Source: a virus. From it: a stretch of 39,337 nt of DNA. Shown here piece by piece: positions 1-17,621 of the stretch; within the stretch, counting starts at the first letter, position 1, and each line of letters opens with the position of its first letter. A model generated the notes under the pieces. It was not told the DNA's origin. It searched no databases and saw only the letters and a program-made list of their open reading frames with translations. A program made the translations under genes and the position numbers. The stretch covers positions 1 through 39,337 of IMG/VR virus record IMGVR_UViG_3300021364_003044; one strand, given 5' to 3'.

Positions 1-342
1 TAATGAATTATTGGTACCTCCATTTGTATTAATTGTCACTAAAATATTTTTTTTATTAAAATAATCAATAATTTTTAAAATATCAGGATTTAAAGTTGGT
101 TCATCTATGTTTCCGCAAAGTTTTACATATTTTAAATTTTTTAATTCAAATTTGTTAAACCATTTTTGAATTTGATAAATCGATACAAAATTACTATTGA
201 TTTTAGAAACATATGGACTAGGTTCAATGAGTTCATTTTGTCTTTGACATGAAGGACATTTAGCATTACAAAATGAAGTAATCTCTAATTGTATTTTTCT
301 GAGTTGATTTATACCAATTGGCCAATAATTATTTCTATTCAT
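1..342 (-). CDS. Radical SAM protein, N-terminal part (runs off window)
   Basis: The gene starts with ATG at 342 and reads in frame to the window edge, so only the first 114 residues are visible. The radical SAM cluster motif CxxxCxxC is at C25, C29 and C32 (SFCNAKCPSC), close to the N-terminus, with no preceding cysteine-rich domain. Where most of these enzymes carry GGEP, this one has CGNIDEPTLNP, followed by a TNGG strand. The same arrangement (CGxxxxPxLNP, then STNGG) occurs in the radical SAM gene at 6255-7247, so the two are probably paralogues. It sits 12 nt downstream of the next radical SAM gene. The radical SAM assignment is firm. The substrate is unknown and the C-terminal auxiliary domain lies outside the window. 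Confidence 0.85.
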   Translation of the reverse strand, partial: MNRNNYWPIGINQLRKIQLEITSFCNAKCPSCQRQNELIEPSPYVSKINSNFVSIYQIQKWFNKFELKNLKYVKLCGNIDEPTLNPDILKIIDYFNKKNILVTINTNGGTNNSL

Positions 343-354
343 TTTTAATTTAAA

Positions 355-1479
355 TTAAATTCTTGAATACATTTTTTTTAATTCTGGAAAAGTATTTAAA
401 AAATCAGTATTTCTTTTTATATCGAATAATGTTATAGATTCATAAAAAACTTCTCTAAGTCGAATCAGTCTTGAGTGATCTATTTCTTTATTTAATAAAT
501 TGTAAAAAATATTTTTGTTCCATCCAAAATATTTAGGAATTTTCTGCACTTGTTTTAAAGATTTATCTAGTAAATCAGAATCAGATTTTATAATATCTAC
601 ACTGTAACACTGTGGATGTGCCCAAAATTTTAATTCTACAGGTTTGATATTATTATCTAAAAACCATTCAGCAAATTTATCTAAAATCAAACAATTAAAG
701 ACATTATAGCAAGAATGCACATTTAAAAATAAACCAGAACGTTGAATTTTATCGTAAATTTTTAACCATTTTTTTTGATTCAACCCCCATCTAACATATT
801 CGCCTCTTTTTTCAAAATTATCTAAACTCATGACAACACTTGCTTTATTAAAATGCACCAAATAATCATATACTATATCTACACCTTTATATTTGTCAAC
901 ACTACCATTTGTGTGCGACCAAACATGTATTTTTTTATTTAATTTTTTTTTGATTAAATAATCCAGCAATTCATAAATTCCATCTTGTAAAAAAGGTTCA
1001 CCGCCATTCAAATGTATACTTTTTATGTTAGATGCATTTTTTGCAATAAAATCTAACTTTTTTTTATTAAATGTACTCCATTCATCAGCACGATCAGACA
1101 ATTCATCACCTTCGTTGGCAATGTGAAAAGGTTCTCGAAAAAGTTTTCCTATTGTAGAGCTTAAAGAAGATTTGCACCCAAGACAGGCAAAATTACATTT
1201 ATTAGAAAACAATAAATCCATATACCTAATATCATATCTTTTATCATTACCCAGCTTAAGAGAGAATGATTCTCTTAGGCTATCAGGACAATTTTCACAT
1301 TCAATAGGTACTATTTGATTATCATATTGATCTCTTAAATGTTGCCATTTTAAATATGCTTCATCATAATCATCAGATTCATAAGATACTGGTAACTGAC
1401 AACAAGGAGATAGTACACCCTTTGGGCCTTCGTATATTGAATTCCAAGGTGCTAGACAGAGTTTATCGAAATGATCCAT
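355..1479 (-). CDS. Radical SAM protein with N-terminal cysteine-rich (N-twitch type) domain
   Basis: 374 residues. The N-terminus carries C8 in LCLAPW, C26-C27 in LSPCCQ and C61/C64 in ECENC. This is the pattern of the twitch domain-containing radical SAM family, in which an auxiliary Fe-S site precedes the SAM domain (family known to me by recall). The radical SAM motif is C95-C99-C102 (NKCNFACLGC) and the GGEP motif is in LNGGEPFLQDG. It is the third of three consecutive radical SAM genes. The upstream one ends at 1483, just before this ATG at 1479. The substrate cannot be deduced. Peptide or small-molecule modification is usual for enzymes with auxiliary clusters. Confidence 0.88.
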   Translation of the reverse strand: MDHFDKLCLAPWNSIYEGPKGVLSPCCQLPVSYESDDYDEAYLKWQHLRDQYDNQIVPIECENCPDSLRESFSLKLGNDKRYDIRYMDLLFSNKCNFACLGCKSSLSSTIGKLFREPFHIANEGDELSDRADEWSTFNKKKLDFIAKNASNIKSIHLNGGEPFLQDGIYELLDYLIKKKLNKKIHVWSHTNGSVDKYKGVDIVYDYLVHFNKASVVMSLDNFEKRGEYVRWGLNQKKWLKIYDKIQRSGLFLNVHSCYNVFNCLILDKFAEWFLDNNIKPVELKFWAHPQCYSVDIIKSDSDLLDKSLKQVQKIPKYFGWNKNIFYNLLNKEIDHSRLIRLREVFYESITLFDIKRNTDFLNTFPELKKMYSRI

Positions 1480-1482
1480 TTC

Positions 1483-2907
1483 TTATTTATACCACTCTAA
1501 CCATTCTAAGTCTGGAAAAATTTCAATAAAATTCAATTCTCTTTTTTCTGCTATTTTAAAACACCATTCAGACATTTCAGGTAATCTTTCAGACCAATCC
1601 TCTGAGTTCATGAAAGATATTAAACCTTCTAACCGTTTAATACCGTATGGTAAATCTTTCCACTCATCAAAAGTCAATTCCTCAACACCATTACACTTAT
1701 GCCAATTATCTTTTAGCCAAATATAAAACTTTTCATATTTTTGAGTAGTTTCTTTCTTAAACCATGTTGGTAAAATTTTGCAATTTAATTGTGGTGGCCA
1801 ATATGCCAAATGCAAATCTATCATACCTGCACCTGCAGGAAATTTGTTCAACAATTTCCATTCTTGACTCAATTTCCAAGTAATAAATTCAGGTAAATAA
1901 AAAATATTAAGTGCTGTAATTGTTGTAGCAGTTGTTAATCTCAAATTACCATGAGGGTAAGAATCTAATTGTTTAAGTTGATGTACAACTCTTCTCCATG
2001 GTGACGGATATCGTATAAAATGATTTTTTTCCGCATAACTGTCTATACTAAAATGAAAAATAACATTTTTAAATTCTTTCCATAAATCAAATAATTCTGG
2101 ATACCATTCCAATCCATTTGAATTATATCTAACTTCTATATTTTTAGCATATCCCATTTCAATAATTTTTTCAAGAACCATGTAATGTTCTTTCATTATT
2201 AAAGATTCGCCACCTGCCCAGTATAATTGTTTTAATGTCGGAACTTGTGTCCAAAATTCATTCCAAAATTCTGGATTTTTTTTATGCCATGCATATGAAC
2301 CCCCGGACCATGCCAATTTACCAGAATCTTTTTCCCACAATTGTGATTTTTTTAGTCTTTCATTTGTGAGAGAAGGATATATTTCTTTATATTCTTTCAC
2401 CCAATTTGATGAATCATGTGGACTACACATCACACAAGCTAATTGACATTTAGATCCCAGTCTCAAGTCAATATATCTAACCCTAGGAGGTATAGAACCG
2501 TCATCAGCGGTATCTTTTATTATATCCTCTATTCCTAGTTCATTGACCCATTTAGCGGTTTCCCATTGCCTCTTACTCCTATGACCTGAATCTTCCTCCT
2601 TAAAACATTTTAAACAAGAATCAGGACGTTCTCCTCTCATCATCATTCTGCGTACCGCTTTCATATAGTCATTATTCCATGCCTCTAATAAACCGGTAGT
2701 TGCTAAATTAGCAGGTTTACCATCATCTCTTCTCAACACACCTGCTTCAGAAATTGTTTTCTTAGTGGAATCTTTATCTTGTACTGCGGACGCATTAGCA
2801 GTACAGCAAACACGCATATGTCCATTAGGTCTTGTCGAAATGTGCATCCAAGGTAATGCGCAAAAAGTTGAGGAGGGTAAATCAATAGGATCTTTATCTA
2901 TTATCAT
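1483..2907 (-). CDS. Radical SAM protein with N-terminal cysteine-rich (N-twitch type) domain
   Basis: 474 residues, the longest non-fused radical SAM protein here. N-terminal motif FCALPW (C16), then RVCC (C34-C35) and CLKC (C98, C101), a likely auxiliary cluster site. The radical SAM triad is C154-C158-C161 (SKCQLACVMC), followed by WAGGES, a degenerate GGEP motif. The long C-terminal half has no recognised domain and is rich in tryptophan. It lies between a QueC-like gene (2929-3699) and another radical SAM gene and is probably co-transcribed with both. The ATG at 2907 has only a weak A-rich leader. Function beyond radical SAM chemistry is unknown. Confidence 0.88.
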   Translation of the reverse strand: MIIDKDPIDLPSSTFCALPWMHISTRPNGHMRVCCTANASAVQDKDSTKKTISEAGVLRRDDGKPANLATTGLLEAWNNDYMKAVRRMMMRGERPDSCLKCFKEEDSGHRSKRQWETAKWVNELGIEDIIKDTADDGSIPPRVRYIDLRLGSKCQLACVMCSPHDSSNWVKEYKEIYPSLTNERLKKSQLWEKDSGKLAWSGGSYAWHKKNPEFWNEFWTQVPTLKQLYWAGGESLIMKEHYMVLEKIIEMGYAKNIEVRYNSNGLEWYPELFDLWKEFKNVIFHFSIDSYAEKNHFIRYPSPWRRVVHQLKQLDSYPHGNLRLTTATTITALNIFYLPEFITWKLSQEWKLLNKFPAGAGMIDLHLAYWPPQLNCKILPTWFKKETTQKYEKFYIWLKDNWHKCNGVEELTFDEWKDLPYGIKRLEGLISFMNSEDWSERLPEMSEWCFKIAEKRELNFIEIFPDLEWLEWYK

Positions 2908-2928: not shown

Positions 2929-3699
2929 TTATTGTAGTTTTCCAAATGCCCATAATCTTTCTTCACACCACCAACACTTACCGCAATGATAGGTGTAATT
3001 ACCAGAATCTTCAATTGAACCTTCACAACTTCTAGTAATAGGAAATAATGTGTTTAATAGATCAAATTTATGATAAATTTTATAAATAAATTTTTTATTG
3101 ATATTAAAAAAAGGATTTATGAAACAACCGTCCGGACTTTCATTGTAAATTTCTCTTTTAGCATCAACATCTCTCACTCTTTCTTTATTTTTATCAATAG
3201 GAGCATCATTCGGCGGATTGCAAGTTATTCCACTATATAGAATTTGCATTTCATCTTTTTCGAATAATTCAACATTCCTATCTCTAAATTCCTTATCTTC
3301 ACATTGATAAGAATCGTTTATATCAGGATAAAAAATTTTATGATCTAAAAATTTAAATTTTAAATTGTCCTCAATAAAATCAACAACATTTTGTGCATAC
3401 AAAGGATTCCAAGGTCTGGTTCTGCGCACACTCAAAGGCAAAATGTTTATTGATAATTTCTCATCAATAATTTTTTTCGCCAATAAATATGCCAAAATAG
3501 AACTATCAGCACCACCAGACATCCATATTCCCAGTGTTTTAACTTCTTTAAATTGATTTTTCATTGTATCATCAAAAAATTTTATATTACCTAGTTTATA
3601 CTCTTCAATATCATAATAAACTCGCTTAAACATAAATTTATGACTAACTTTTTTAGGTATAATAATTTCTACTTTTTGATTCTCAATTTCAATAATCAT
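2929..3699 (-). CDS. QueC-like ATP pyrophosphatase (copy 1)
   Basis: 256 residues. A PP-loop (SGGADSS, S61-S67) marks an N-type ATP pyrophosphatase that adenylates its substrate. Four cysteines at C225, C239, C242 and C245 (SCEG...HCGKCWWCEER) match the zinc site of 7-cyano-7-deazaguanine synthase QueC. It is a close paralogue of the gene at 5464-6258: both share the N-terminal EIIIPK, the PP-loop region, SVRRT, NVVDFI and LFPITRSCEG. QueC itself converts a carboxylate to a nitrile through an amide. No QueD, FolE or classical QueE is evident nearby, so amide or nitrile formation on another substrate is equally possible. The start at 3699 has AGGA upstream. Confidence 0.75.
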   Translation of the reverse strand: MIIEIENQKVEIIIPKKVSHKFMFKRVYYDIEEYKLGNIKFFDDTMKNQFKEVKTLGIWMSGGADSSILAYLLAKKIIDEKLSINILPLSVRRTRPWNPLYAQNVVDFIEDNLKFKFLDHKIFYPDINDSYQCEDKEFRDRNVELFEKDEMQILYSGITCNPPNDAPIDKNKERVRDVDAKREIYNESPDGCFINPFFNINKKFIYKIYHKFDLLNTLFPITRSCEGSIEDSGNYTYHCGKCWWCEERLWAFGKLQ

Positions 3700-3704
3700 A
3701 GTTC

Positions 3705-3824
3705 CTATTCATAAATATAGATGTCGTAATTATAATTTTTTTCTAAATTTGAATCATCATCAGATTCATCTTCATTAGATTCATCTTCATCAACTTCATT
3801 GTTTTTATCAGGCATATGTGACAT
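3705..3824 (-). CDS. Small acidic tyrosine-rich peptide (39 aa)
   Basis: A short reading frame fills the gap between the nitroreductase and the QueC-like gene. It begins with ATG at 3824 (an internal ATG at 3815 would drop three residues), overlaps the nitroreductase stop at 3808-3810, and ends in TAG at 3705-3707. The middle (residues 10-24) is almost entirely Asp, Glu, Ser and Asn. The last nine residues hold four tyrosines (Y31, Y33, Y36, Y38). No signal peptide or zinc motif is seen. Size and position would fit a leader-core substrate for the neighbouring radical SAM enzymes or a small regulatory protein. The ribosome binding site is weak, so translation is not certain. Confidence 0.45.
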   Translation of the reverse strand: MSHMPDKNNEVDEDESNEDESDDDSNLEKNYNYDIYIYE

Positions 3825-4428
3825 TTATTTTCTTATTGAATGATGGTATCATATCATCAGTAATATGATGTTGTCTTCTATTTTTCATAGAATCTTTAAT
3901 ACCCACTCCCATCAATAGTACAGGATCAAATTCAGTATTCAAGATTCTTTTTACTTCTTGTGCATCAAAACACTTACAACATCCTGTCTCATAATCTAAC
4001 ATACTAGCTGTTAAATTAACAAATCCAGCAGCAATACCTATCGCCTGATGCAAATCTTCTTCAACGGTCACTTCATCATTTGAAGTCATGTTACCATTAA
4101 CATTGTTAACATTTTCTTGATTTTTAGAATTTTCTAATTTATTTTTAGAAAAAACCAGTAATGCATTTGCCAATACTTGAGGATTGGTTCTTCCTTCTTG
4201 ATTGTCATTTTCAAAATACGTTTTATCATGAATATCTTCAATTATATCTCTGTCCTGAATAACATGTAAATTATAAAATTCAATATTTTGTTTTGTTGGA
4301 CATTCAGTCGCAGAAGTTACTATTAAATCCAAATCTTCTTTTGGAATGATCTTATTCAAATCCCAATTTCTCTGACATCTCTGAGATTTGAAAATGGATT
4401 TCTTAATTTTGTCTTTAAAATCTTTCAT
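3808..4428 (-). CDS. Nitroreductase-like flavoprotein
   Basis: 206 residues. The N-terminal half has the family-like QRCQRNWDL and ATECPTKQN segments that contact FMN in nitroreductases. The second half has the helical AIGIAAGFVNLTASMLDYE and a closing VLLMGVGIK strand (PLLMLGIG-type). A polar, low-complexity insert (about residues 97-120, Asn/Glu/Ser-rich) separates the halves. Such flavoproteins oxidise or reduce C-N, C=C or nitro groups, and azoline oxidation in peptide pathways uses related enzymes. ATG at 4428 has AAGG upstream and overlaps the preceding radical SAM gene by 14 nt. The exact reaction is unknown. Confidence 0.7.
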   Translation of the reverse strand: MKDFKDKIKKSIFKSQRCQRNWDLNKIIPKEDLDLIVTSATECPTKQNIEFYNLHVIQDRDIIEDIHDKTYFENDNQEGRTNPQVLANALLVFSKNKLENSKNQENVNNVNGNMTSNDEVTVEEDLHQAIGIAAGFVNLTASMLDYETGCCKCFDAQEVKRILNTEFDPVLLMGVGIKDSMKNRRQHHITDDMIPSFNKKINVTYA

Positions 4429-5467
4429 GAAACCTTTCTAATTCGTTTAAGAAATTACTCAAATTTTTTGGAAACTTTTTATGTTTTATATTATTGTAGT
4501 TCAATAAAAATTCAGAAACAACATCATGATTATATTTATTTGATTTTAAATGTTTATCGATTAAATCTAAAAATTTAGAGTTTTTAGAGTATTCCAGTAT
4601 TATTTTTTTAAATTCATCGGGTATATATGAAACATCTAACATCTTAGGATTATACAGAGGAGTGAATAAAATATCATCAGAATATCTGTTCATAACTTTT
4701 TCTATGTTTAATATATCAAGACAATTCATTATTTGATAAACTAATTGAAACGATATGAAAAAATCGTTTTTTTTCCATTCTTCTAAAGTTTTTAAAAAAT
4801 TTTCATATTTTATACCTCTTCTAATTAAAACTACAGTGTCAGATGTAGCATCAAAACTGACTTTAATATTGACATTTTTGAATTTTTTCAATTCACTTAA
4901 AATTTGATCATCGGGAAAGATTGTACAATTAGTATTTATGATTAATTTAGTATTCTTACTCATTTTATCTAAAATAGAGTATAATCTTTTTTCGGCAAAA
5001 GGTTCACCTCCCGATAAAACAGCTTCATCAATTTCATCAAAATCTAAATTTGTAAACACATCAAAATTATTAATTTCTCTATAACCTTTAAATCTATTAC
5101 TGTAATCCGAACTGCACATTATACATTTTAAATTGCAAATGTTACTCAAAGAAAATTCTAAGTATTTTATCCTAGGATTTTTTATGTATTCTTCATCATA
5201 AAACTTTGTGTTTAATTGATTTCTTAGACTCCAATTACCCTCACTTTCATATTTGTGACAAGCAAAACAATTTTCCACAAATTCTCCATTTAAAAATTTT
5301 TTTCTCAAATCTTTATTTTCATCACTATTAAATGTTTCTAATATGGAATATTTTTTAAACTTTTCATCTTTATAAGGCAGAGGCTTGAATAAACAACATG
5401 GTCTATAATATCCATTTGGCATTAATGACATTGATATGAATGGGGCAATACAGAATTTATCGTTCAA
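4415..5467 (-). CDS. Radical SAM protein with N-terminal cysteine-rich domain, TTG start
   Basis: I place the start at TTG 5467 (350 aa). It is preceded by GGGAGG with a five-base spacer and overlaps the upstream TGA stop as TTGA. The longer ATG-started form (5512) would add 15 residues that merely overlap the QueC-like gene. From the TTG the protein opens with NDKFCIAPF (C6), as family members do, then RPCC (C24-C25) and CFAC (C67, C70). The radical SAM triad is C111-C115-C118 (NICNLKCIMC), with GGEP in LSGGEPFAEK. It sits between QueC-like copy 2 and the nitroreductase. Substrate unknown. Confidence 0.87.
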   Translation of the reverse strand: MNDKFCIAPFISMSLMPNGYYRPCCLFKPLPYKDEKFKKYSILETFNSDENKDLRKKFLNGEFVENCFACHKYESEGNWSLRNQLNTKFYDEEYIKNPRIKYLEFSLSNICNLKCIMCSSDYSNRFKGYREINNFDVFTNLDFDEIDEAVLSGGEPFAEKRLYSILDKMSKNTKLIINTNCTIFPDDQILSELKKFKNVNIKVSFDATSDTVVLIRRGIKYENFLKTLEEWKKNDFFISFQLVYQIMNCLDILNIEKVMNRYSDDILFTPLYNPKMLDVSYIPDEFKKIILEYSKNSKFLDLIDKHLKSNKYNHDVVSEFLLNYNNIKHKKFPKNLSNFLNELERFHERF

Positions 5468-6258
5468 ATATACCTCCCAAATGCCCAAAATCTTTCTTTG
5501 CACCACCAACATTTTTCACAGTGAACTGTATAATTTTTTGTATCCTGTTCAAACCCTTCACAACTTCTAGTAATGGGAAATAATGTTTCTAACAAGCCGA
5601 AATCATCATATATTTTCGCTAATATTTTTTTGTTTATTTTAGCAAAAGGATTATAATATGTTCTCAAAGGCCAATCATCTTTAATTAAAATAGTTCCTTG
5701 ACCATCGTCTCTATTTGTTTGAGTACTTTCTTCATCCAACTCACCTTTGGGGGGATTTGAAGTTATACCACTATACATAACTTGCAATAAATTTTTTGAA
5801 AAATTTTCATGATCCCTGTCAACAAATTCTTTAAAATTTGCCTGATAATCATCATCAAGAGATGGCCAATATGATTTCAAATCCAATATGTTATCAACTT
5901 TCAATTGATCTTTAATAAAATCCACAACATTTGCTGCGTATAAAACATTCCATGTTTTAGGTGTCCTTCTAACACTTAATGGTTGTAATAAAACATCAAG
6001 ATTCTCATCTTTTATTTTTTTTGTCAACAGATAGGCTAACAAAGAACTATCAGCACCTCCTGACATCCAAATACCGATAGTTTTTACTGGTATTTGTTCA
6101 ATATTATTTTGATCACTATTAAAAGTTCCCTTTTTTTCTTGCTCTACTATCCAATCGACATCGTGCTGATACAAAAATTTCAATACATCTTCTTTATATC
6201 TAGGAACTGTTTTAGGTATAATAATCTCAATTTTTTTATTATCATAATTCAATTTCAT
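5464..6258 (-). CDS. QueC-like ATP pyrophosphatase (copy 2)
   Basis: 264 residues, paralogous to the protein at 2929-3699. The PP-loop is SGGADSS at residues 66-72. The QueC-type zinc cysteines are C233, C247, C250 and C253 (SCEG...HCEKCWWCKER). The region between (LSVRRT, NVLYAANVVDFI, ITSNPP) is also shared with copy 1, so a single ancestral gene was duplicated or acquired twice. The ATG at 6258 overlaps the upstream radical SAM stop as ATGA, and the stop overlaps the next TTG. It may act as a QueC (carboxylate to nitrile) or as an amide-forming ligase on an unknown substrate. Confidence 0.75.
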   Translation of the reverse strand: MKLNYDNKKIEIIIPKTVPRYKEDVLKFLYQHDVDWIVEQEKKGTFNSDQNNIEQIPVKTIGIWMSGGADSSLLAYLLTKKIKDENLDVLLQPLSVRRTPKTWNVLYAANVVDFIKDQLKVDNILDLKSYWPSLDDDYQANFKEFVDRDHENFSKNLLQVMYSGITSNPPKGELDEESTQTNRDDGQGTILIKDDWPLRTYYNPFAKINKKILAKIYDDFGLLETLFPITRSCEGFEQDTKNYTVHCEKCWWCKERFWAFGRYI

Positions 6259-7247
6259 AATTTTTCCTTTATTACTGATCTTTTACCACCATCGCCACAA
6301 GAGAACCAACATCTAGGCACATGAAATTTACTATTTTTATTCCAACCATCTACTAATGTCTTCAAATACCATTCAGAATTCAATATCTCAGTTAAGGAAT
6401 GTATATTTAAATCATTAAAATTATTACCATAATTATTAAAAACATTACTCAATCCAAGTTCTACAATTGATTTTTCTTTTACATTTTCATCATACAGATG
6501 ACAACAAGGCCATAATTTATTATCCACACTTATAAAAATTTCATTTTTTATTTTATGTCTGCATTTAATATTTACTGAATCGTAATCATCATCCAGTATT
6601 TTTTGTTTTATACTTTCAACACTGTTTACATCCAATTCTTTTGAATTAGTTGATTTATTATGTTTTGCAGATTCACTGTTATTTCTCCAACTATTTCTTG
6701 TTAAAAAAGTCATTCCTTTCTCATCTGCTATTTTCTTTGCTAAAGTTAATTCACTAAAATTATAGTCAAACAATATGTATTGCCACACACTCAAACCTCC
6801 TGCTTGATTGTATGTATTTACATTTTCCCAAACTTTGTTAATGTTTACGTTTTCTCTGTAATCATTTCTAGTCACACCATCGATTGACCAATGTACAACA
6901 AATTTTTCATTTGACATTTTAGATAATTCACCTAAATTTTTCCAAAAATCCTTAGTTTTTGCTCCACCATTAGTTGACATCTCAATATTTTTTACATTTT
7001 TGCTAAAAATAAAATATTCTATTATAAGTTCTAATTCTGGATTTAACATTGGATCACCCAAAACACCGCATAATTTAATTTTAGTATTTTTCATATCTAA
7101 ATTATAAAAATTTTGTTTGATCTGCTTTAATGATAAATTACCCTTAAAGTAAGAAATTTTTTTATTGTCCAATTTAGTTCTCATGCAATCAGAACATCTT
7201 GCATTACATAAAGATGACAATTCAATTTCTATAACATCAATTTTCAT
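6255..7247 (-). CDS. Radical SAM/SPASM-like protein
   Basis: 330 residues. The radical SAM triad is C14-C18-C21 (SLCNARCSDC) at the extreme N-terminus. In place of GGEP it has CGVLGDPMLNP, then MSTNGG. The C-terminal third has cysteines arranged like a SPASM domain: NIKCRHK, LWPCC, then PRCWFSCGDGG. This suggests one or two auxiliary Fe-S clusters. SPASM proteins generally modify peptides or proteins, though sugar-modifying members exist. It resembles the partial gene at 1-342. It overlaps the preceding radical SAM gene by 11 nt and the following QueC-like gene by 4 nt, so translational coupling is likely. Confidence 0.87.
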   Translation of the reverse strand: MKIDVIEIELSSLCNARCSDCMRTKLDNKKISYFKGNLSLKQIKQNFYNLDMKNTKIKLCGVLGDPMLNPELELIIEYFIFSKNVKNIEMSTNGGAKTKDFWKNLGELSKMSNEKFVVHWSIDGVTRNDYRENVNINKVWENVNTYNQAGGLSVWQYILFDYNFSELTLAKKIADEKGMTFLTRNSWRNNSESAKHNKSTNSKELDVNSVESIKQKILDDDYDSVNIKCRHKIKNEIFISVDNKLWPCCHLYDENVKEKSIVELGLSNVFNNYGNNFNDLNIHSLTEILNSEWYLKTLVDGWNKNSKFHVPRCWFSCGDGGKRSVIKEKL

Positions 7248-8376
7248 ATTCTATGGTCTCAAATAATTTTTTCACATGCAAATCCCTCTCATAATTACTA
7301 TTTTTCTGTGATATTATTTCATATCCCAATTCATCTATAGTGTGTGCATTAAACATTTTACTTATATCATTTTTTGATTTTGTTATGCACATCCCACACC
7401 CACAGAATGATTTTGGACAAGTAATAATAGGCGCCTTTTTAGCATATAATTTATCAGCTAATTCTTCTATAATTTTATCAAACTCAGATATTTTACCCAA
7501 AGGCGCAACATCTCCATTTAAATTTACCGCACATGTTTGGTGAGTATATACAGCATCCAATTCTGAATTTAAAAACAGAAAATACCAATTTACCATACAA
7601 TTCCATCCAAAAAAATTTGTATCTGGTAAAAAATAAGAATCTACACCATCCGCCCTAAAACGTCTACCTCCACAACAAGGTCTACCAAGGCCTTTTTGAC
7701 TTTCACCCGAATCCGCAACGTTTTGTCCTTTTTCTTTCCAAAAATTTCTGAACCATTTCATTTGATCTCTAGTATACTTATGCGCATAACCTAACTCTAT
7801 TGCTTTCTCATCACTTTCTTCATCCCCAATGATTCTAGGTATAAATTTCACTCCATTCTTTTCCAATTTTTCACATACCTCTATACATTCATCAAAAAAA
7901 TTTTTATGAAACATGACATTAACTTTAAAATTTTCTTTTAAGGCAATAGCATTTTCAACCACTTTAGACTTCATTGAAGAAGTGGCCTCACAGTGATATG
8001 AGAGAGTGCCTCCTGTCGTTAACTCCATGACCTGATTCAATATTTTAGTACCAAACCAACCATTCGTTGTCAATCCTCTACTAAAATCTGGATATTCATT
8101 TTTAATAAACTCTAAAAATTTAAAGAAATCTGGATGTATTGTCGGTTCTCCTCCCGTAAAACTTAATTTTTTTCTAGATGGAAATTTTCTAAAGGTATCA
8201 TATAATTCAGCATATTCTGCCACATATCTCATTGATTCGCACAATGTTTCATAGTCAATAAATTTAGACGTTTTATTATTCCTATGAGGAGGACAATATG
8301 TACATGCATAAGAACATCTTCTACCCAAATCCCAAATTATCTGGTATCGATTAGACAAATCTTCAATATTTTTCAT
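7237..8376 (-). CDS. Radical SAM protein
   Basis: 379 residues. The radical SAM triad is C21-C25-C28 (RRCSYACTYCPPH), with a canonical GGEP in FTGGEPTIHPDF. The C-terminal portion is rich in cysteine (RPCCGG, WNCMVNW, HQTCAVNLNGDVAPLG, CPKSFCGCGMC), so auxiliary clusters are likely. The sequence around the cysteines departs from the other seven radical SAM proteins, marking a separate subfamily. It begins at ATG 8376 just after the small gene ending at 8378. Substrate unknown. Confidence 0.87.
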   Translation of the reverse strand: MKNIEDLSNRYQIIWDLGRRCSYACTYCPPHRNNKTSKFIDYETLCESMRYVAEYAELYDTFRKFPSRKKLSFTGGEPTIHPDFFKFLEFIKNEYPDFSRGLTTNGWFGTKILNQVMELTTGGTLSYHCEATSSMKSKVVENAIALKENFKVNVMFHKNFFDECIEVCEKLEKNGVKFIPRIIGDEESDEKAIELGYAHKYTRDQMKWFRNFWKEKGQNVADSGESQKGLGRPCCGGRRFRADGVDSYFLPDTNFFGWNCMVNWYFLFLNSELDAVYTHQTCAVNLNGDVAPLGKISEFDKIIEELADKLYAKKAPIITCPKSFCGCGMCITKSKNDISKMFNAHTIDELGYEIISQKNSNYERDLHVKKLFETIEYEN

Positions 8377-8377
8377 T

Positions 8378-8650
8378 TTAATCTTTTATCATATAAGGAC
8401 ATACTTGAATCTCATCTACCATCTCCAAACACTTATAAAAATTTATATTTGTATTTTTAGAAAAGTATAATTTTATTAATGACGTTTTTCCAAAAATATA
8501 ATTCTCGTTGTGAGAGATGGTGAACATTTCATGTTTAGTGTTTTTATGTAATTCTATTTCGTGGTTAAAAAATTCAATATCTATTTCTCCATCGTAATAG
8601 GCAATTGTAAAATTTTCAAATTGAAATAATTTTATATTCTCTGGGTATTC
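8378..8650 (-). CDS. Hypothetical protein, about 90 aa
   Basis: I do not recognise this protein. The likely start is ATG 8650 (EYPENIKLF follows the Met), giving 90 residues. An earlier ATG at 8689 would give 103 residues but overlap the upstream gene by 74 nt instead of 35. It is rich in aromatic and acidic residues (FENFTIAYYDGEIDIEFF), predicted beta-rich, with a single Cys near the end (QVCPYM) and no signal or membrane segment. It lies between an unknown protein and a radical SAM gene. A substrate-presenting or accessory role is possible but nothing in the sequence proves it. Confidence 0.55.
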   Translation of the reverse strand, partial: EYPENIKLFQFENFTIAYYDGEIDIEFFNHEIELHKNTKHEMFTISHNENYIFGKTSLIKLYFSKNTNINFYKCLEMVDEIQVCPYMIKD

Positions 8651-9380
8651 CATTTCTCTCCAAATTTGGTCTCCACTTTTCATATCCAATTCTACCTATC
8701 TTTAGTCCATATCCGTCCAATACACACAATCTCACCATTTCCGAATCAAATATTATTCTTTTAAAATTTTCTACATTAAAATAATCTTTATAAAAATCAA
8801 TTAATCTTTGATTACAATTTTCTTGAATTTTTAAAAAAGTTGAAGTGTCACACCACCAAAAATTTTTACAACCTTTTCCCATGGATTTTTTGCAGCTATA
8901 ACTATCCGCAGTTATGAAACTCTCTTCATGTTCTATAAACTCTCTGACAGTCATTCCTTTATTTTTTCTATCAGAAAAATGATTGTCATTTTTAATGATA
9001 GTAGATGAACAAACAACTATTTTATCATAATCGTCAACTTTCATTTCCTTTAAAAAAACGAATTCATTCATTCTTTCTTGTATTTCATTAGTTCTCATTG
9101 TCCTAATGTCAACATCAGTTTTAAATCCAGAAAATTCATAAAAATTTTTTAGCAACATTTTCATTACTTCTGGAAAATAATCAGAGTATAATCCGTACAA
9201 TTCTTCCATAGTATATTTCGTTTCAAAATTAGAATATATGTATACAGTTTTATGAAAATCCATAGAAATATAATTTGTAAGTAAATAATTTATGTCAAAC
9301 CCGTCAAACATTTCTTCCCATATAGGTCGTTTTTCTTCTAATAGAGAAGGCATTCCTACAATATAAACTTTAGTTCTCAT
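8616..9380 (-). CDS. Hypothetical protein, 254 aa, in the radical SAM cluster
   Basis: I do not recognise this family. The protein opens with a beta strand and glycine turn (KVYIVGMPS). It has an internal strand KIVVCSSTII and a cysteine-containing segment (SYSCKKSMGKGCKNFWWC, about residues 161-178). The C-terminus has SEMVRLCVLDGYGLKIGR. The alternating strands and helices suggest an alpha/beta fold such as a transferase, but no catalytic motif is convincing. ATG 9380 overlaps the aminotransferase stop (ATGA-type coupling), so it belongs to the same transcription unit. Confidence 0.65.
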   Translation of the reverse strand: MRTKVYIVGMPSLLEEKRPIWEEMFDGFDINYLLTNYISMDFHKTVYIYSNFETKYTMEELYGLYSDYFPEVMKMLLKNFYEFSGFKTDVDIRTMRTNEIQERMNEFVFLKEMKVDDYDKIVVCSSTIIKNDNHFSDRKNKGMTVREFIEHEESFITADSYSCKKSMGKGCKNFWWCDTSTFLKIQENCNQRLIDFYKDYFNVENFKRIIFDSEMVRLCVLDGYGLKIGRIGYEKWRPNLERNGIPREYKIISI

Positions 9381-10240
9381 CTATCTATTAAATCCATTGA
9401 GCATAAAGCCATTCTGAAAACATCGTTAGATTCAAGTATTTTAATATTTTTTTTAATGAACATAGGTCTTTCTTTTAAAAAAACTGAATTTGAATAAGAT
9501 TTGATGTGGTCATACGTATTTTCTAAATATTTTTTTGTATTTTTCATTCTTTGAATATGATCATTTTTGTGTGAAAATAAAAAATCTGTAGTCAATCCAG
9601 AAAGAGATGTTGATGAAAAATTCATCCTGTTTTGTTGAATCTTATTAATTAATTTTTCATTTGAAAAAGCAAATGCCTGACGAATACCAGTGAAAGAAAA
9701 AAGTTTAGAAAATGTTTTAGTAATAAAAACATTTTCGAATTCCTCACCAAACATTTGATATGTTCCAAAATCACCATAAGCCTCATCAATTATCACCAAC
9801 TTATAATTTTCAATCAATTTCAATATCTCATCTTTGGACAATTGTTCACCTGTTTGTCCATTTGGATTTTCTAAATATAAAACATCTGCATTATTAGAAA
9901 ATTTATAATTATTTTTTTTTGATATTAATTGTATGTGATTCCACGTAGGTAAACTATAGTATATTGTTTTATAATTAAATGTGTATAAAATTCTATCTAT
10001 TAATTCCCATGTACCCAGGCCAATAACCAAATTTGATTTTTTTAAGTTATAGTGAGATGAAATAGAATCGTATACAGTAAAATCATCAGGAAACAAATGA
10101 ATATCAAAATATATCTCATTTAAAAATTCATTAAATTTTTTATTAAGCACGGTATCATAACAGCAATTTTTAGATAAATCAATAATTTCTTTGTTAGAAT
10201 TTTCGTTCTTTATTGTCCAGTCGGGTCTTGAAATACTCAT
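9377..10240 (-). CDS. PLP-dependent aminotransferase, class I/II fold (HisC-like), short
   Basis: 287 residues, against about 350 for histidinol-phosphate aminotransferase. Visible family motifs are the substrate loop NPNGQTG (residues 125-131), the cofactor aspartate in IIDEAYGDF (D152, Y155) and the PLP lysine K179 in TKTFSKLFSFTGIRQAF. The N-terminal cofactor-binding turn is reduced to GLGTWELIDR. The C-terminal small domain looks shortened. It probably transaminates an amino acid or keto acid in the surrounding radical SAM pathway. It overlaps the upstream radical SAM gene by 47 nt. No better start is seen, since ATG 10240 is the only Met before the core fold. Confidence 0.8.
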   Translation of the reverse strand: MSISRPDWTIKNENSNKEIIDLSKNCCYDTVLNKKFNEFLNEIYFDIHLFPDDFTVYDSISSHYNLKKSNLVIGLGTWELIDRILYTFNYKTIYYSLPTWNHIQLISKKNNYKFSNNADVLYLENPNGQTGEQLSKDEILKLIENYKLVIIDEAYGDFGTYQMFGEEFENVFITKTFSKLFSFTGIRQAFAFSNEKLINKIQQNRMNFSSTSLSGLTTDFLFSHKNDHIQRMKNTKKYLENTYDHIKSYSNSVFLKERPMFIKKNIKILESNDVFRMALCSMDLIDR

Positions 10241-11012
10241 AATTTTTTTCGCCTATAAATGTTCCGTTTACATCGCAGTTTTCACAAGAAATAATGCATT
10301 TTCTTTCACCCCTTGTAAGATGCATTCTCATTTTGTTTACATAATCGCTCAACCAAATATCTCTAAAAGAAGATTGCTCTAAATTACCTATGATAATTTT
10401 ATATTTCCAGTCATTATTACAAAATCTTAAATTTAAATTGTAATCCACAACCGTTTTATAAAAAGGAAAATAACAAACCTTATTCTCAAATTGATTATCG
10501 ACATGTTCTCTTTTCCTATTCGTATAATTTAATGGAAATTTAAATTGATTTTTAACAATAATATTTCTACCCCTTACCATTTTCATTTTTTTATCATAAT
10601 TTTCATTCGAATCATATTCATTAAGAACCAGATAATTTAAACCATTATCAAATAAATGATCTATTATTTTTTCATTTTTTAAAATTCTATCACCATTAGT
10701 TATAAGATAAGGTTTATATTTTTTCAAATTATTAATAATACTGTAAACATTTGGATTCAATAAAGGTTCCCCATTACCAGAAAAAGCAAGAGTTCCTGTA
10801 AAATTTAGTTCATCTAATCTATCTTTTAAAATTATAGAATTTTCCACACTCATGTTTAAATTTAAATTAGGATAAAAAGATGATCTTGGACAAAAATAAC
10901 ATTTTCTATTACATAATTCGGTTATGTTGACCTCTATAGACGATAGACCATAATTATTTTCATTAAATTTAACACGTTCTTTTTTAAAATTAATATATTC
11001 TGATTCTATCAT
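10194..11012 (-). CDS. Radical SAM/SPASM protein
   Basis: 272 residues. The radical SAM triad is C34-C38-C41 (ELCNRKCYFCPR), with GEP in FSGNGEPLLNP. A SPASM-type C-terminus is clear: NKVCYFPFYKT, LRFCNNDW, then IGNLEQSSFRDIW and CIISCENCDVNG. This supplies cysteines for auxiliary clusters. SPASM enzymes characterised so far act mostly on ribosomal peptides or proteins. The ATG at 11012 overlaps the stop of the radical SAM-LRR gene (ATGA), so the two are probably translated together. Confidence 0.88.
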   Translation of the reverse strand: MIESEYINFKKERVKFNENNYGLSSIEVNITELCNRKCYFCPRSSFYPNLNLNMSVENSIILKDRLDELNFTGTLAFSGNGEPLLNPNVYSIINNLKKYKPYLITNGDRILKNEKIIDHLFDNGLNYLVLNEYDSNENYDKKMKMVRGRNIIVKNQFKFPLNYTNRKREHVDNQFENKVCYFPFYKTVVDYNLNLRFCNNDWKYKIIIGNLEQSSFRDIWLSDYVNKMRMHLTRGERKCIISCENCDVNGTFIGEKNYEYFKTRLDNKERKF

Positions 11013-13018
11013 GGTATGAAATCGTGTATATCAAAACAAATACTATTATTAAAATAATTTTTATATCCTACATTATCTATTATATCACATTTCATCAATT
11101 TCATTTTTTTAACTTCACCATATATTTTAATGGCATTACCTTCTCCAATTCTTAAAAATTTTAATTTTTTTAATTTAGACAATACACTTATATCTTCTAT
11201 TCTATTATTGATTATTGATAAAGCTTCTAAATTTTTCAATTCCCCTATTTCAGAAATATCAAAAATATTATTGTTATCTAAATTTAAAGATTTTAATTTT
11301 TTTAATTTTTTTAAAAAATTTAAATTTTTTATTTCATTATTATTACAGTCTAATTCTATCAAATTCTCAAACATAGAAATATTTTCTGGATCTTTTAACC
11401 CTATAGAATCTATACTTAAAACCTGCAAATTTTTAAAATTCTTAAATTGCAAAATATGGCCTACTGGATTACCATGAATCCATAAATACTCAATATTTTT
11501 ATTTAAAATAGAAGAAAAATCGCTTACGTTATTACCACCCATCGATAACCAATATAAATCTTCTAAAACATCTAAAGACGATATATCCTTTATATTATTA
11601 TATCCAATATCTATTTTTTTTAATTTTTTTAAATATCTAAAACAAAACGTATCTATGTTACAGTTATGCAGATATAGTTCTTCTAGATTTACCATATCAT
11701 ATAAAAAAGAAACATCCCTCAAATCCTCATCGGACACTTTGAATGTTCTATTTTTTTTAATTGTTTTTAATTCACCTTCATGCTTTTTAATTATTTGGTG
11801 GGCACTATCACTTATTTTTAAATCATTCACTAATTCCCAAATTTCCGGATTCACATTCTTAAATTTTTTACCCTGATATTCATCTAAAATATTCATACTT
11901 TCTATAAATTGATTCATTAAATTCACTGATTGATGATCATTTAATATAATATTATTAAATTGTTTTCTATATTCTATTTCATGGTGTGAATTAAATATTT
12001 CAATGTTAAATTTTTCTCCATTATCTGGAATTATCCATTTTTTTCTAAAATCTAGAGGTATCATATTCTGACGTAAAAATTCTGGAAATTGCAATTGCGC
12101 AGGAACTATCTTTATTTTCATATCCTCAACAAAATTAACTAAGTCATTAATTTTGTTGATATTCATAATACTAATAGTTGGGTGAATTTTAATTTCAAAT
12201 TCCGTTTCGTCAATAAATTTCTTTAATGTATTGAGAACTAATTTCCAAGGTCTACCATACCTGATCACTTCGAATAAATTTTCAGTAGCGTCTATGCTAA
12301 CATCCAAATATACTTTTTTCATCTTCTTCAAAATATTCATTCTATCTTTGGAAGGAAAAATACTACAATTAGTATTAATTCTTATAGTTATCTCAGATAA
12401 ATCACATTGTTTTTCTAATAACTGTAAAAACCAGAAAAATCTAAAACTCAAAAAAGGCTCACCTCCCACTAATGCCACTCTTCTTATTTTACTCAAATCC
12501 GTTCTACCCAACAATTCCACAATTTTATCATGTCTTTTCTGGTTTGCAGTAAAATCTTGATAGTGATTTTCATCTATATCAAATAATTCAGGAATTTTAC
12601 TTATCGCATCATTCCAGACACTACTTTGTCCTGGTCGACAAATTCTACACATAAAATTGCATTTATTATCTAATGATAATTCCAAATCTTCTAATTCTAA
12701 TTCTTGATATCCTTCCTGTTTACAAATATCAATGTAATATTGTCTTTTGCTGATGTACCCCATTCTCTCCGCTTCCCAGCAATTTCGACAGCCTGGAAAT
12801 CCATTACCTTCCTCCAGCAATCTTTCACGCAAATCAAACCAGGCATAACTTCTATGGATTTTATTCAGGTTTTTGACTTTATCAGTGAAAAAATTATCCC
12901 ACGAAAAATTATCCAAATCCTTGTCGTTGAACCAGCAGCAAGGCCGAATTTCCCCATTATTTTGAGTGATTGCAATATGATTAGTTTGATACAAGCATAC
13001 TAAATTTGAATTTTTCAT
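11009..13018 (-). CDS. Radical SAM protein fused to leucine-rich repeats
   Basis: 669 residues in two parts. Residues 1-about 400 form an N-twitch type radical SAM enzyme: C27-C28 in IRPCCWF, C77/C80 in GCRNC, radical SAM triad C120-C124-C127 (DNKCNFMCRIC), and GGEP in LVGGEPFLSF. Residues about 432-633 contain some nine leucine-rich repeats of 21-22 residues of the SDS22/internalin type, for example LKSLNLDNNNIFDISEIGEL. The frame is open throughout, so this is a genuine fusion and not two genes. LRRs bind proteins or peptides, so this domain may recruit a protein substrate. It is coupled by ATGA overlaps to both neighbours. I know of no characterised protein with this architecture. Confidence 0.9.
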   Translation of the reverse strand: MKNSNLVCLYQTNHIAITQNNGEIRPCCWFNDKDLDNFSWDNFFTDKVKNLNKIHRSYAWFDLRERLLEEGNGFPGCRNCWEAERMGYISKRQYYIDICKQEGYQELELEDLELSLDNKCNFMCRICRPGQSSVWNDAISKIPELFDIDENHYQDFTANQKRHDKIVELLGRTDLSKIRRVALVGGEPFLSFRFFWFLQLLEKQCDLSEITIRINTNCSIFPSKDRMNILKKMKKVYLDVSIDATENLFEVIRYGRPWKLVLNTLKKFIDETEFEIKIHPTISIMNINKINDLVNFVEDMKIKIVPAQLQFPEFLRQNMIPLDFRKKWIIPDNGEKFNIEIFNSHHEIEYRKQFNNIILNDHQSVNLMNQFIESMNILDEYQGKKFKNVNPEIWELVNDLKISDSAHQIIKKHEGELKTIKKNRTFKVSDEDLRDVSFLYDMVNLEELYLHNCNIDTFCFRYLKKLKKIDIGYNNIKDISSLDVLEDLYWLSMGGNNVSDFSSILNKNIEYLWIHGNPVGHILQFKNFKNLQVLSIDSIGLKDPENISMFENLIELDCNNNEIKNLNFLKKLKKLKSLNLDNNNIFDISEIGELKNLEALSIINNRIEDISVLSKLKKLKFLRIGEGNAIKIYGEVKKMKLMKCDIIDNVGYKNYFNNSICFDIHDFIP

Positions 13019-15590: not shown

Positions 15591-16195
15591 CAAAAGTCTA
15601 ACCAAATTTTATCGTAGTCAGTTTTTATGTAATTTTCATACCAAGGTCCGCCAAGAGTATAATGTAATGCAGAAGAATCACTATTATATTCATATTCACC
15701 AACTAACCAATTCCATGTTAAAGGTATACTACCTATATCATCATTATTTATCCATTTAAACTGATGTAAATCCATTAAATTCATATTCAAAATTTGATGC
15801 ATAGATAAATTAAATTTATCTTTATTGAAAATCATCAAACTAGACCAATTTTTACAATGATAATTGTTATTGATTTTGTTATTCATTTTTATATCAGTAT
15901 TGGAAACATAATCGTGTTTACACAAATAAACTATTTTATCATCGCTTAAATTACTCATTAATTTTTTAGGATTTTTTAAGAATAAAAAGTCATCGTCACA
16001 AAATGCAACCCACTTATTATCAGAACTATCCAAAAGAGGTGTTAAAAATCTAGTTCTGCTAAAATTATTAGTAGTGCTATCTTCCACATAAAGTAAAATT
16101 TTGTTTGTTTTAATATCATATCTATTGAGAGATTTCTTACATTTTTCATAGACAATAGGATAATCAATATTAAAACCTAACCAAAATTCAAACAT
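15590..16195 (-). CDS. Putative glycosyltransferase (GT-A like)
   Basis: 201 residues. A metal-binding DxD motif is in WVAFCDDDFLFLKNP (D67-D69), following an N-terminal alpha/beta half (NKILLYVEDS). The C-terminus has TWNWLVGEYEY and ALHYTLGGPWYENY, typical of small phage GT-A enzymes that end with an H-x-T-x-GGPW segment. These transfer a sugar from a nucleotide donor. Together with the nearby SGNH hydrolase it suggests glycosylation of a pathway product or cell-surface component. The start ATG 16195 overlaps the symporter stop by 8 nt. Confidence 0.7.
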   Translation of the reverse strand: MFEFWLGFNIDYPIVYEKCKKSLNRYDIKTNKILLYVEDSTTNNFSRTRFLTPLLDSSDNKWVAFCDDDFLFLKNPKKLMSNLSDDKIVYLCKHDYVSNTDIKMNNKINNNYHCKNWSSLMIFNKDKFNLSMHQILNMNLMDLHQFKWINNDDIGSIPLTWNWLVGEYEYNSDSSALHYTLGGPWYENYIKTDYDKIWLDF

Positions 16196-17621
16196 TTTGT
16201 TTTATTTTTGAAAAAATAAAATATGTTAAAAAGGATACCAACAAAGTAGGAACAATTGTTTCAACAAAATTAATTTTACCTAGATCAATTGTGATTCCAG
16301 TAAATAATTTTGATTCTTTAAAATGAACAAAAAATAACCAAAATAAAGATGTTAATGAGCCTAAAATTATCGACCAAATAGCCGCATTTTTGTTATGTTG
16401 TCCTCTTACCATTGCAATAAGACTAGGCAATATACTACCTCCAAGAAGTGAGAAATATACTGCTGTTGATCTTGAAATGAAGGCCGGTTGATTTTCGTTA
16501 ATTATACTCATCAATATAGCAAAAAATATTACCAGTAGCATCGATATAATTCCCATATTTTTATTTTCTTTTTTTAACAAATCATTAGATACTGTGGTAG
16601 ATAATAAATGCATTAATGAATTTAGTGTAGTAAATGCTGCTGCCAAAATTGTGACAAATATGATCATACTCATCCAAAAAGAATAACCATCATTAATCCA
16701 TTGAGGAATTATATTGTCTATTGATCCTGCATACTGAACTGCCGTTTGTGAATAATTTGCATAATAATATGCATTTGAAGAAATTCCAGCAATAAAAAAA
16801 GATCCAATAACAACAAAAGGTATGACTACACCATAAGGAGCAATTTTTTTAAATGATTCTTCACTTTTAGAAAGCATAAATCTAGTTTGCATTTGTGGAA
16901 GAGCAATTAAACCAACTGGGATAGTAACACATAATAAAGAAAATTCAAACAACCAACCTTTTGATAAGAAATCAGGAAAATCAGTGAATCCTGTGAATCC
17001 TATACTCTTGGTAAAACCTATCAATTTATTTTCAGAATTATCAAATGCCATTCTAAGAAAATCCAAGTAATCTATTGGAATGATATGATTAAAAATAGTA
17101 TACACCAACACAATTGTCGATCCGGCAATTGTTATAAGACCTAAAATGGTATCATTTTTTACTACAGTTTTCATCCCTCCATAAAATATAGTTGAGAAAA
17201 CTAATAATGAAAAAACGGTTAAAGACATTAAATAATTTAATCCAGTTGTTGATTCTATGAATTTACCAACCCCAATGATAACTGCTGTACAATAAAAAGG
17301 TATTAAAATTACTGTCATAAATGCCAGTAATTTTCTCATCAAAGCAGAATCATAGTATCTAGAAATCAATTCTATGAAAGTTTTAGCATTCATTTCTTTG
17401 TTCAATTTATAGACTTTAGGACCGATATAAATTGTTGATAAATAAATTGTCATTAACATAAAAAAAGGTAATAAAAATGCAGAGTATCCAAGCCAACCTG
17501 CCAACCCTCCAAATCCAATTATAGCAGATGTTGATATAATGGTAGCTCCATAAGATAAACCTACCATTATATTTTTCACATTACTAGTCAAGTAAAAACT
17601 TTCTGTTTCAAATTTCATCAT
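16188..17621 (-). CDS. Sodium:solute symporter family (SSS) transporter
   Basis: 477 residues. I choose ATG 17621 because GGAGG lies six bases upstream. An earlier ATG would reach back into the preceding gene. The protein has about 12-13 hydrophobic membrane segments. The signature is in segment 1-2 (GLSYGATIISTSAIIGFGGL, AGWLGYSAFLLPFF), with FYGGMKTVVKNDTI as in YGG-K-V-W-TD of SSS proteins and a loop QMQTRFMLSKSEE. SSS carriers couple Na+ entry to uptake of sugars, amino acids, vitamins or carboxylates across the inner membrane. The substrate is not deducible. A full-length secondary transporter of this family is unusual in a phage. Confidence 0.85.
   Translation of the reverse strand: MMKFETESFYLTSNVKNIMVGLSYGATIISTSAIIGFGGLAGWLGYSAFLLPFFMLMTIYLSTIYIGPKVYKLNKEMNAKTFIELISRYYDSALMRKLLAFMTVILIPFYCTAVIIGVGKFIESTTGLNYLMSLTVFSLLVFSTIFYGGMKTVVKNDTILGLITIAGSTIVLVYTIFNHIIPIDYLDFLRMAFDNSENKLIGFTKSIGFTGFTDFPDFLSKGWLFEFSLLCVTIPVGLIALPQMQTRFMLSKSEESFKKIAPYGVVIPFVVIGSFFIAGISSNAYYYANYSQTAVQYAGSIDNIIPQWINDGYSFWMSMIIFVTILAAAFTTLNSLMHLLSTTVSNDLLKKENKNMGIISMLLVIFFAILMSIINENQPAFISRSTAVYFSLLGGSILPSLIAMVRGQHNKNAAIWSIILGSLTSLFWLFFVHFKESKLFTGITIDLGKINFVETIVPTLLVSFLTYFIFSKIKQNV

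Follow-up and report, generated by a model that had tools for sequence, protein, structure and literature searches.

In bacterial immunity, enzymes with the QueC fold were recently found to attach a base to proteins. QueC itself is the 7-cyano-7-deazaguanine synthase (PF06508; PDB 3BL5, 2PG3), with a Rossmann-like PP-loop core, an SGGxDS motif, a TPL...K segment and a four-cysteine C-terminal end. The residues of its YPDC, YxQxHxxE and VPxRN motifs are essential or bind CDG (PMC13329287, PMC13279940). Cap9 of type IV CBASS (PDB 9NTO) retains a CDG-binding YxDC and has as its partner a CD-NTase that starts with Met-Gly, whereas QatC of the qatABCD defense system (PDB 9Y01) has lost the Y/D pair (PMC13279940) and differs from QueC in its motifs and in being extended at both termini (PMC13329287). 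In phages, QueC-family and radical-SAM genes meet in 7-deazaguanine DNA modification systems, which are built on preQ0 genes and a transglycosylase (PMC6884629). Multiple radical-SAM genes have also been described in uncultured marine T4-like phages, from environmental viral genomes (PMC5332604) and from pelagimyophage cassettes (PMC7029224), in passages that mention no QueC-like partner, fusion or paralogue sets. A pairing of QueC-like with radical-SAM enzymes is not described in the open-access literature searched.

Two QueC-like genes in a radical-SAM gene run

The window analyzed here is a whole stretch of 39,337 nucleotides of viral DNA (IMG/VR record IMGVR_UViG_3300021364_003044). It contains two QueC-like genes, A and B, within the following set of features:

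355..1479, (-) strand: N-terminal-twitch radical-SAM protein (NF033640, 179 bits; CX3CX2C)
1483..2907, (-) strand: core N-terminal-twitch radical-SAM protein, 474 aa, the next gene after A (NF033640, 394 bits; CX3CX2C)
2929..3699, (-) strand: QueC-like ATP-pyrophosphatase A, 256 aa, CWWC type (PP-loop SGGADSS, CX13CX2CX2C, sub-threshold Pfam QueC, viral-family profile, tree)
3808..4428, (-) strand: nitroreductase-family protein, between A and B (Pfam Nitroreductase, 2.2e-10)
4415..5512, (-) strand: N-terminal-twitch radical-SAM protein directly after B, reading frames overlapping (NF033640, 204 bits; CX3CX2C)
5464..6258, (-) strand: QueC-like ATP-pyrophosphatase B, 264 aa, CWWC type (motifs, alignment to A, AlphaFold2, nearest folds)
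6255..7247, (-) strand: radical-SAM/SPASM-like protein directly before B, 4-base overlap (Pfam SPASM and Radical_SAM near threshold; CX3CX2C)
7237..8376, (-) strand: second radical-SAM type, rSAM2 (Radical_SAM, 40 bits)
9377..10240, (-) strand: HisC/CobD-like PLP aminotransferase (TIGR01141, 95.7 bits, under cut-off; Pfam Aminotran_1_2)
10194..11012, (-) strand: radical-SAM/SPASM protein (Pfam Radical_SAM 37.1 bits, SPASM 33.5 bits)
11009..13018, (-) strand: N-terminal-twitch radical-SAM protein with C-terminal leucine-rich repeats (NF033640, 232 bits; LRR_4, 79.5 bits)

The cut-off of NF033640, the N-terminal-twitch radical-SAM family, is 170 bits. A sequence-only reading of this DNA had reported two paralogous QueC-like proteins at 2929-6258, with a PP-loop and four QueC-type cysteines, amid radical-SAM genes; both open reading frames were confirmed over that span, and radical-SAM genes flank the pair on both sides in a one-strand run. 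A and B are 51% identical across their entire length (E 3e-82). The SGGADS of the PP-loop begins at position 61 in A and 66 in B, and the family alignment (A2) shows no variation at G68, D70 and S71 and almost none at G67. The C-terminal cysteines are C225, C239, C242 and C245 in A and C233, C247, C250 and C253 in B, giving a spacing of CX13CX2CX2C against the CX8CX2CX2C of QueC; all four are kept in the family and, as a putative zinc site, align with the zinc end of QueC. Pfam QueC scores A at 21.5 bits and B at 15.7 bits, against a curated cut-off of 22 bits, matching the C-terminal zinc part only, and 6 of 16 related contigs reach that cut-off. A profile of the viral family matches A at E 5.9e-73.

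A separate clade of the QueC superfamily

The family of A and B numbers at least 72 loci in IMG/VR and 13 in MAGs, with zero matches among 50,697 GenBank phage records. Its signature is GxTxNPP...R...SCE...HCGKCWWCxER. The YPDC substrate motif, present in 14 of the 15 true QueC proteins used as a control, occurs in 0 of 37 viral members, where GxTxNPP and a near-invariant Arg replace it (alignment A2); YxQxHxxE and VPxRN, which the control set carries, are likewise not conserved in this alignment. The sequence-only reading had proposed a phylogeny in which firm clustering of both copies with true QueC, together with full preQ0 genes elsewhere in the genome, would indicate ordinary preQ0 synthesis. 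No such clustering was seen: the family is monophyletic, a clade of its own (support 99/99, branch 2.04), although long branches limit its deeper placement. Within the QueC superfamily, whose members are zinc-type PP-loop ATP pyrophosphatases, it is a separate, undescribed clade.

Divergent paralogues, of CWWC, C[FY]FC and CFWC types, recur within single viruses. A recent tandem duplication giving A and B was rejected, since the starred six-row set of the tree that holds B lacks A; the copies are thus older paralogues or were acquired separately.

The AlphaFold2 model of B has a mean pLDDT of 92, and its nearest folds are Cap9, TilS, QueC and QatC. Cap9 is the best structural match (Foldseek E 3.6e-5; Z 13.2 over 164 residues); QueC 3bl5 scores Z 11.7, QatC Z 11.2, and TtuA, NcsA and LarE Z 10-11. 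Profile-profile comparison matched canonical QueC at 97% probability over the zinc end. Besides that end and the SGGxDS motif, the family has in common with QueC the Rossmann-like PP-loop core and the TPL...K segment. The fold is common to the amide-forming NadE, QueC and AsnB, the lysidine-forming TilS, the sulfur-transferring TtuA, LarE and NcsA, and adenylyltransferases, all within about 3 Z units of the best match; because it serves several chemistries, the one proposed below is guessed from what the closest relatives do. A structure search of viral models found no close relative, returning only annotated phage QueC, PAPS-reductase-like and TilS-like proteins at 13-17% identity.

Association with radical-SAM enzymes

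The tie between QueC-like genes and radical-SAM enzymes drawn from the sequence alone was right, and gene fusion now backs it: two contigs, 76% identical, encode open reading frames of 830 and 832 aa in which an N-terminal-twitch radical-SAM protein is fused to a QueC-like one. N-terminal-twitch radical-SAM genes occur in 41 of 44 QueC-like contigs, with up to 21 per contig. When contigs were instead picked only by the core radical-SAM gene, 28 of 44 held a QueC-like gene, and up to four; the other 16 imply that the QueC-like gene is not obligatory for the radical-SAM enzyme, although fragmentation may explain part of this number. A radical-SAM gene is the immediate neighbor of 37 of 65 QueC-like copies, compared with a mean of 24.4 and a maximum of 35 over 500 shuffles, an excess kept modest by the high density of radical-SAM genes. 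Reading frames mostly overlap between such neighbors. The core radical-SAM protein of the window, whose CX3CX2C motif reads CQLACVMC, is 80-84% identical in near relatives (orthologue table, alignment A3), and rSAM2, a type that repeatedly adjoins QueC-like genes in other viruses, is 68-76% identical. The fold of the radical-SAM enzyme was tried as a guide to substrate and set aside: the nearest structures to the core model (SkfB, BlsE, DesII, SuiB, viperin and MoaA) lie within about one Z unit of each other, so the fold does not discriminate.

Proposed function

Taken together, we think it rather likely that this clade serves as ATP-dependent ligase in the radical-SAM-centered biosynthetic cassettes of uncultivated tailed phages and some Bdellovibrionia. 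A and B are most likely carboxylate-activating, amide-forming ligases of a viral biosynthetic pathway, acting together with radical-SAM enzymes as partners. The QueC-like enzyme would bind ATP and adenylate a carboxylate on whichever substrate or intermediate its radical-SAM partner handles, and the adenylated carboxylate would then couple to an amine, giving an amide or amidine. Of the two roles put forward in the sequence-only reading, 7-deazaguanine DNA modification is unsupported, and the other, an amide- or nitrile-forming step on something else, fares better, agreeing with the QueC/Cap9-type fold and the remodeled pocket; the phages probably build some molecule or modification other than the modified DNA/RNA base of QueC. 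Of the two reasons offered there for keeping two copies, two substrates or a possible heteromer, the first agrees with the recurrent divergent paralogues, of which one 16-kb stretch holds four, each close to a radical-SAM gene. A and B would act on different substrates, or at different positions, within one pathway. A more ambitious version is possible, but we hold it tentatively: each radical-SAM enzyme may have a dedicated QueC-like ligase, in some cases as a fusion, in a modular system of uncultivated phages and Bdellovibrionia that assembles a metabolite or a heavily modified peptide or glycan, which would amount to a natural-product-like pathway encoded by viruses and using a new class of ligase. 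A divergent, widespread viral branch tied to radical-SAM enzymes would widen the known roles of the QueC scaffold, and the fused enzyme offers a concrete, testable entry to the marine T4-like phages that carry a dozen radical-SAM genes, noted so far without explanation.

Alternative roles

Conjugation as in Cap9 or QatC would make a partner protein the target: its N-terminal glycine, or one of its side chains, would receive a base or another carboxylate from the ligase, possibly for anti-defense or self-modification. Besides the structural match, Cap9 shares the CE that starts the zinc end and branches beside the viral family, albeit at a point of the tree where long branches come together. 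Of 37 members, 31 match the PADLOC QueC model; the QatC model matches 4 of 37, weakly (best E 0.0048), and QatC shares the fold, the zinc end and the loss of the Y/D pair. However, the YxDC of Cap9 is absent from the viral family, whose corresponding loop conserves no aromatic-x-acid pair; no small partner is conserved, Met-Gly starts in neighboring gene families are at background (2% overall), and the recurrent partner is a radical-SAM enzyme. We therefore regard conjugation as rather improbable.

A lineage that gathers accessory enzymes in hypervariable regions could also bring QueC-like and radical-SAM genes together without functional link. Pelagimyophage radical-SAM cassettes are placed in a hypervariable host-recognition cluster (PMC7029224), adjacency exceeds shuffles only modestly, and replication or structural modules hold some solitary QueC-like genes with no adjacent radical-SAM gene (L006, L020-L027, L030, L042, L045). 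Such chance company is an improbable account of a fusion found in two diverged contigs, of overlapping reading frames, and of the same combination on Bdellovibrionia chromosomes.

Were the four cysteines to hold an iron-sulfur cluster, the adenylated substrate might be thiolated as in TtuA, NcsA and LarE, whose structural scores and the iron-sulfur-rich surroundings fit this reading. TtuA, NcsA and LarE have three cysteines placed elsewhere than the QueC zinc end, with which the viral arrangement aligns, and no sulfur-carrier gene was recognized nearby; we give sulfur transfer little credence.

True preQ0 synthesis, by a divergent QueC supplying 7-deazaguanine for DNA or tRNA with CDG from phage or host, is highly improbable despite the QueC-type fold and zinc end, and was rejected on the motif loss, the phylogeny and the missing pathway genes.

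As the sequence-only reading had noted, the window lacks FolE throughout, and neither QueD nor a standard QueE is among its 30 Pfam-scanned or ten NCBIfam-scanned proteins; the partner genes are radical-SAM genes rather than queD or queE. A wider search found FolE in 7 of 44 and QueD in 6 of 43 QueC-like contigs, which are fragments, with both in three (G009, G027 and G034) that lack canonical QueC. Canonical QueC itself was found in 0 of 16 contigs, and a TGT-family transglycosylase (PF01702) in 0 of 44, compared with 14 of 14 controls, although a divergent phage DpdA could escape the model and the contigs are fragments. Several divergent paralogues per genome also argue against preQ0 synthesis, as do the Bdellovibrionia genomes G052 and G053, which carry the QueC-like family and retain a separate canonical QueC. 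It may also be that not every viral gene listed as "queC" among auxiliary metabolic genes makes preQ0.

Other neighboring genes

Scans for promoters and terminators scored the same as shuffled sequence or close to it, and an Rfam scan found two tRNAs and nothing else. The most frequent neighbor clusters have zero Pfam matches, so the names given to them (SDR, aminotransferase, amidinotransferase, methyltransferase) were assigned by eye. The nitroreductase-family gene between A and B (cluster 17) is present in 8 loci. In the proposed ligase pathway, the HisC/CobD-like aminotransferase (9377..10240) is a probable member.

Two QueC-like paralogues within a radical-SAM gene cluster

The 39,337-base window is a whole IMG/VR virus record, a linear fragment in which the cluster genes, running from about 13 kb to base 1, lie on the minus strand and mostly overlap or are closely spaced. 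The contig end truncates a radical-SAM-like gene, so the cluster extends past the window.

1-342 (-), radical-SAM-like gene truncated at the contig end (cluster 44)
1483-2907, core radical-SAM protein of the N-terminal-twitch family (N_Twi), the gene after A
2929-3699 (-), QueC-like protein A
5464-6258 (-), QueC-like protein B
11009-13018 (-), N_Twi radical-SAM protein fused with leucine-rich repeats
16188-17642 (-), sodium:solute symporter
18532-19512 (-), AMP-binding ligase
19490-20704 (-), tryptophan-halogenase-family gene
20712-22109 (-), carbamoyltransferase
right part of window, phage genes: two exonucleases, endolysin, purC-like and PRPP-synthetase-like genes
right part of window, two tRNAs

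A and B are full-length paralogues (51% identity), each with SGGADSS and four C-terminal cysteines; one radical-SAM gene and one nitroreductase gene separate them and radical-SAM genes lie on both flanks, which confirms the pair described in the sequence-only reading. Both fall narrowly below the Pfam QueC cut-off, the matched part being the zinc end only, and the PHROG "QueC-like" family matches across the same end. Near the radical-SAM block, the halogenase, carbamoyltransferase, ligase and symporter genes give the window a natural-product-like content that is unusual in phage.

A distinct branch of the QueC superfamily

A profile built from both window proteins and five relatives uncovered 72 viral loci, while a single scan of GTDB genomes gave 13 MAG loci. 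Among the latter, one contig comes from an archaeal MAG and several from Bdellovibrionia, where lengths of 710 and 937 kb mark two as cellular; two further contigs, from marine MAGs, could be viral DNA placed in the wrong bin. Two single-sequence tblastn searches of GenBank phage records, which distant members would escape, returned no family match. Alignment of the window proteins with 35 from the 72 viral loci revealed 16 invariant positions, including PP-loop residues, one Pro in GxTxNPP, one Lys, one Thr, and both the cysteines and the Trp-Trp pair in HCxKCWWCxER.

A confident AlphaFold2 model (mean pLDDT 92) had Cap9 as its top Foldseek match (E 3.6e-5), with VIA-align Z scores of 13.2 for Cap9, 11.9 for TilS, 11.7 and 11.6 for QueC, and 11.2 for QatC. 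Compared profile to profile with 15 canonical QueC proteins, the family gave a significant match (97%), confined to the last 62 columns. The QueC catalytic signature comprises YxQxHxxE, VPxRN, YPDC and a Tyr following the first of the zinc cysteines (PMC13329287). In both QueC and Cap9, YPDC uses its Tyr and Asp to bind the substrate CDG (PMC13279940). YPDC is present in 14 of 15 QueC controls but in none of 37 viral members, whose loop instead carries GxTxNPP and a near-invariant Arg; likewise, SCY of QueC is SCE in the viral family. Maximum-likelihood phylogeny groups the viral proteins with those of Bdellovibrionia in a single clade (99/99), set off by a long branch from QueC, QatC and a Cap9 row that is partial and was joined from two aligned stretches; as long branches come together deep in the tree, placement at that level is unreliable. 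The QueC-family survey lists canonical QueC, QatC, Cap9, LarE, WbpG-like proteins, GMP synthase and small archaeal clusters, none of which appears to carry the viral signature (PMC13329287). The family of A and B is real and widespread, and as a branch of the QueC superfamily apparently undescribed.

The 7-deazaguanine DNA modification considered from the sequence alone is not supported, given the loss of YPDC, a clade set apart from true QueC, and the scarcity of pathway genes in contigs with the family, which are fragments (FolE 7/44, QueD 6/43, and TGT 0/44 with a model that divergent phage DpdA could escape). FolE and QueD occur together only in G009, G027 and G034, large viral contigs of 328, 519 and 158 kb that also carry QueC-like genes. 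A residual preQ0 role would best be looked for in these three; canonical QueC was not found in any of them, which makes such a role unlikely there. Two Bdellovibrionia genomes (G052, G053) have canonical QueC in addition to the new type. A non-preQ0 role for A and B is well supported, and the alternatives raised by the sequence-only reading survive.

Partnership with radical-SAM enzymes

The core N_Twi protein (80-84% identity in near relatives) is better conserved than the adjoining QueC-like proteins. Of 44 contigs having a QueC-like gene, 41 also carry N_Twi genes, as many as 21 in one contig; the other three are short fragments of 14-30 kb. Viral relatives of the core protein number at least 595, including those on the IMG/VR contigs behind loci L132-L211. 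Conversely, when contigs were selected by this protein alone and 44 of the longer ones searched, 28 carried a QueC-like gene, with up to four each. The background rate for this co-occurrence comes from GenBank phages only, where both families are nearly absent (four weak matches to the core protein among 50,697 phages). A radical-SAM gene is directly adjacent to 37 of 65 viral QueC-like copies, whereas 500 within-locus shuffles gave 24.4 on average and 35 at most. The adjacent pairs mostly have overlapping frames. In two contigs the domains are joined in one protein of 830/832 aa (radical-SAM 19-430, QueC-like about 590-826; 76% identity over the protein). As it is kept in two diverged genomes, this fusion points to a shared function more strongly than any other single observation. 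Through fusion, adjacency and co-occurrence, partnership of the family with radical-SAM enzymes is well supported.

In four loci (L020, L023, L025, L026), the QueC-like gene directly follows a T4-type DNA-polymerase-like gene and is followed by UvsX- and helicase-like genes, with no adjacent radical-SAM genes.

Multiple copies recur, with more than one in 13 of 52 distinct viral loci within the short stretch fetched. Besides CWWC there are C[FY]FC types and CFWC types with an N-terminal extension, and one contig (G370) holds four different QueC-like genes in 16 kb, a radical-SAM gene close to each. Such recurring paralogues are easier to reconcile with separate substrates or steps than with gene dosage, consistent with the earlier suggestion of two substrates. 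In the tree, a starred set of six includes B and lacks A, which rules out recent duplication as the origin of the pair.

Possible chemistry and cluster context

Enzymes with this fold use ATP, bound at the PP-loop, to convert an acceptor into an activated adenylate or phosphate; in QueC and Cap9 the activated group is a carboxylate and the product an amide. By analogy, the same chemistry may apply to A and B, on a substrate that the adjoining radical-SAM proteins would supply or finish; amide formation is likely at best.

Three Bdellovibrionia-type loci (L084, L089, L090) have gene clusters in common with the viruses: the N_Twi radical-SAM proteins, the second radical-SAM type (7237-8376 (-) in the window) and a larger radical-SAM protein whose N-terminus is cobalamin-binding-like. 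Further shared clusters were labelled by eye as SDR, PLP-aminotransferase, methyltransferase and 2OG oxygenase, and Pfam did not recognise their representatives. Whole clusters look closer to natural-product or surface-glycan pathways than to DNA modification, which is a lead and not a result. Radical-SAM cassettes have been described within the host-recognition region of pelagimyophages (PMC7029224), and a 2017 paper counted twelve such genes in a single environmental genome of T4-like type (PMC5332604). Near QueC-like and radical-SAM genes, L089 has predicted membrane-protein pairs at 5274-6708 and 8639-10088 (clusters 43 and 65), where the protein at 9129-10088 had no Pfam hit, and L090 has a similar-looking pair at 4607-5969.
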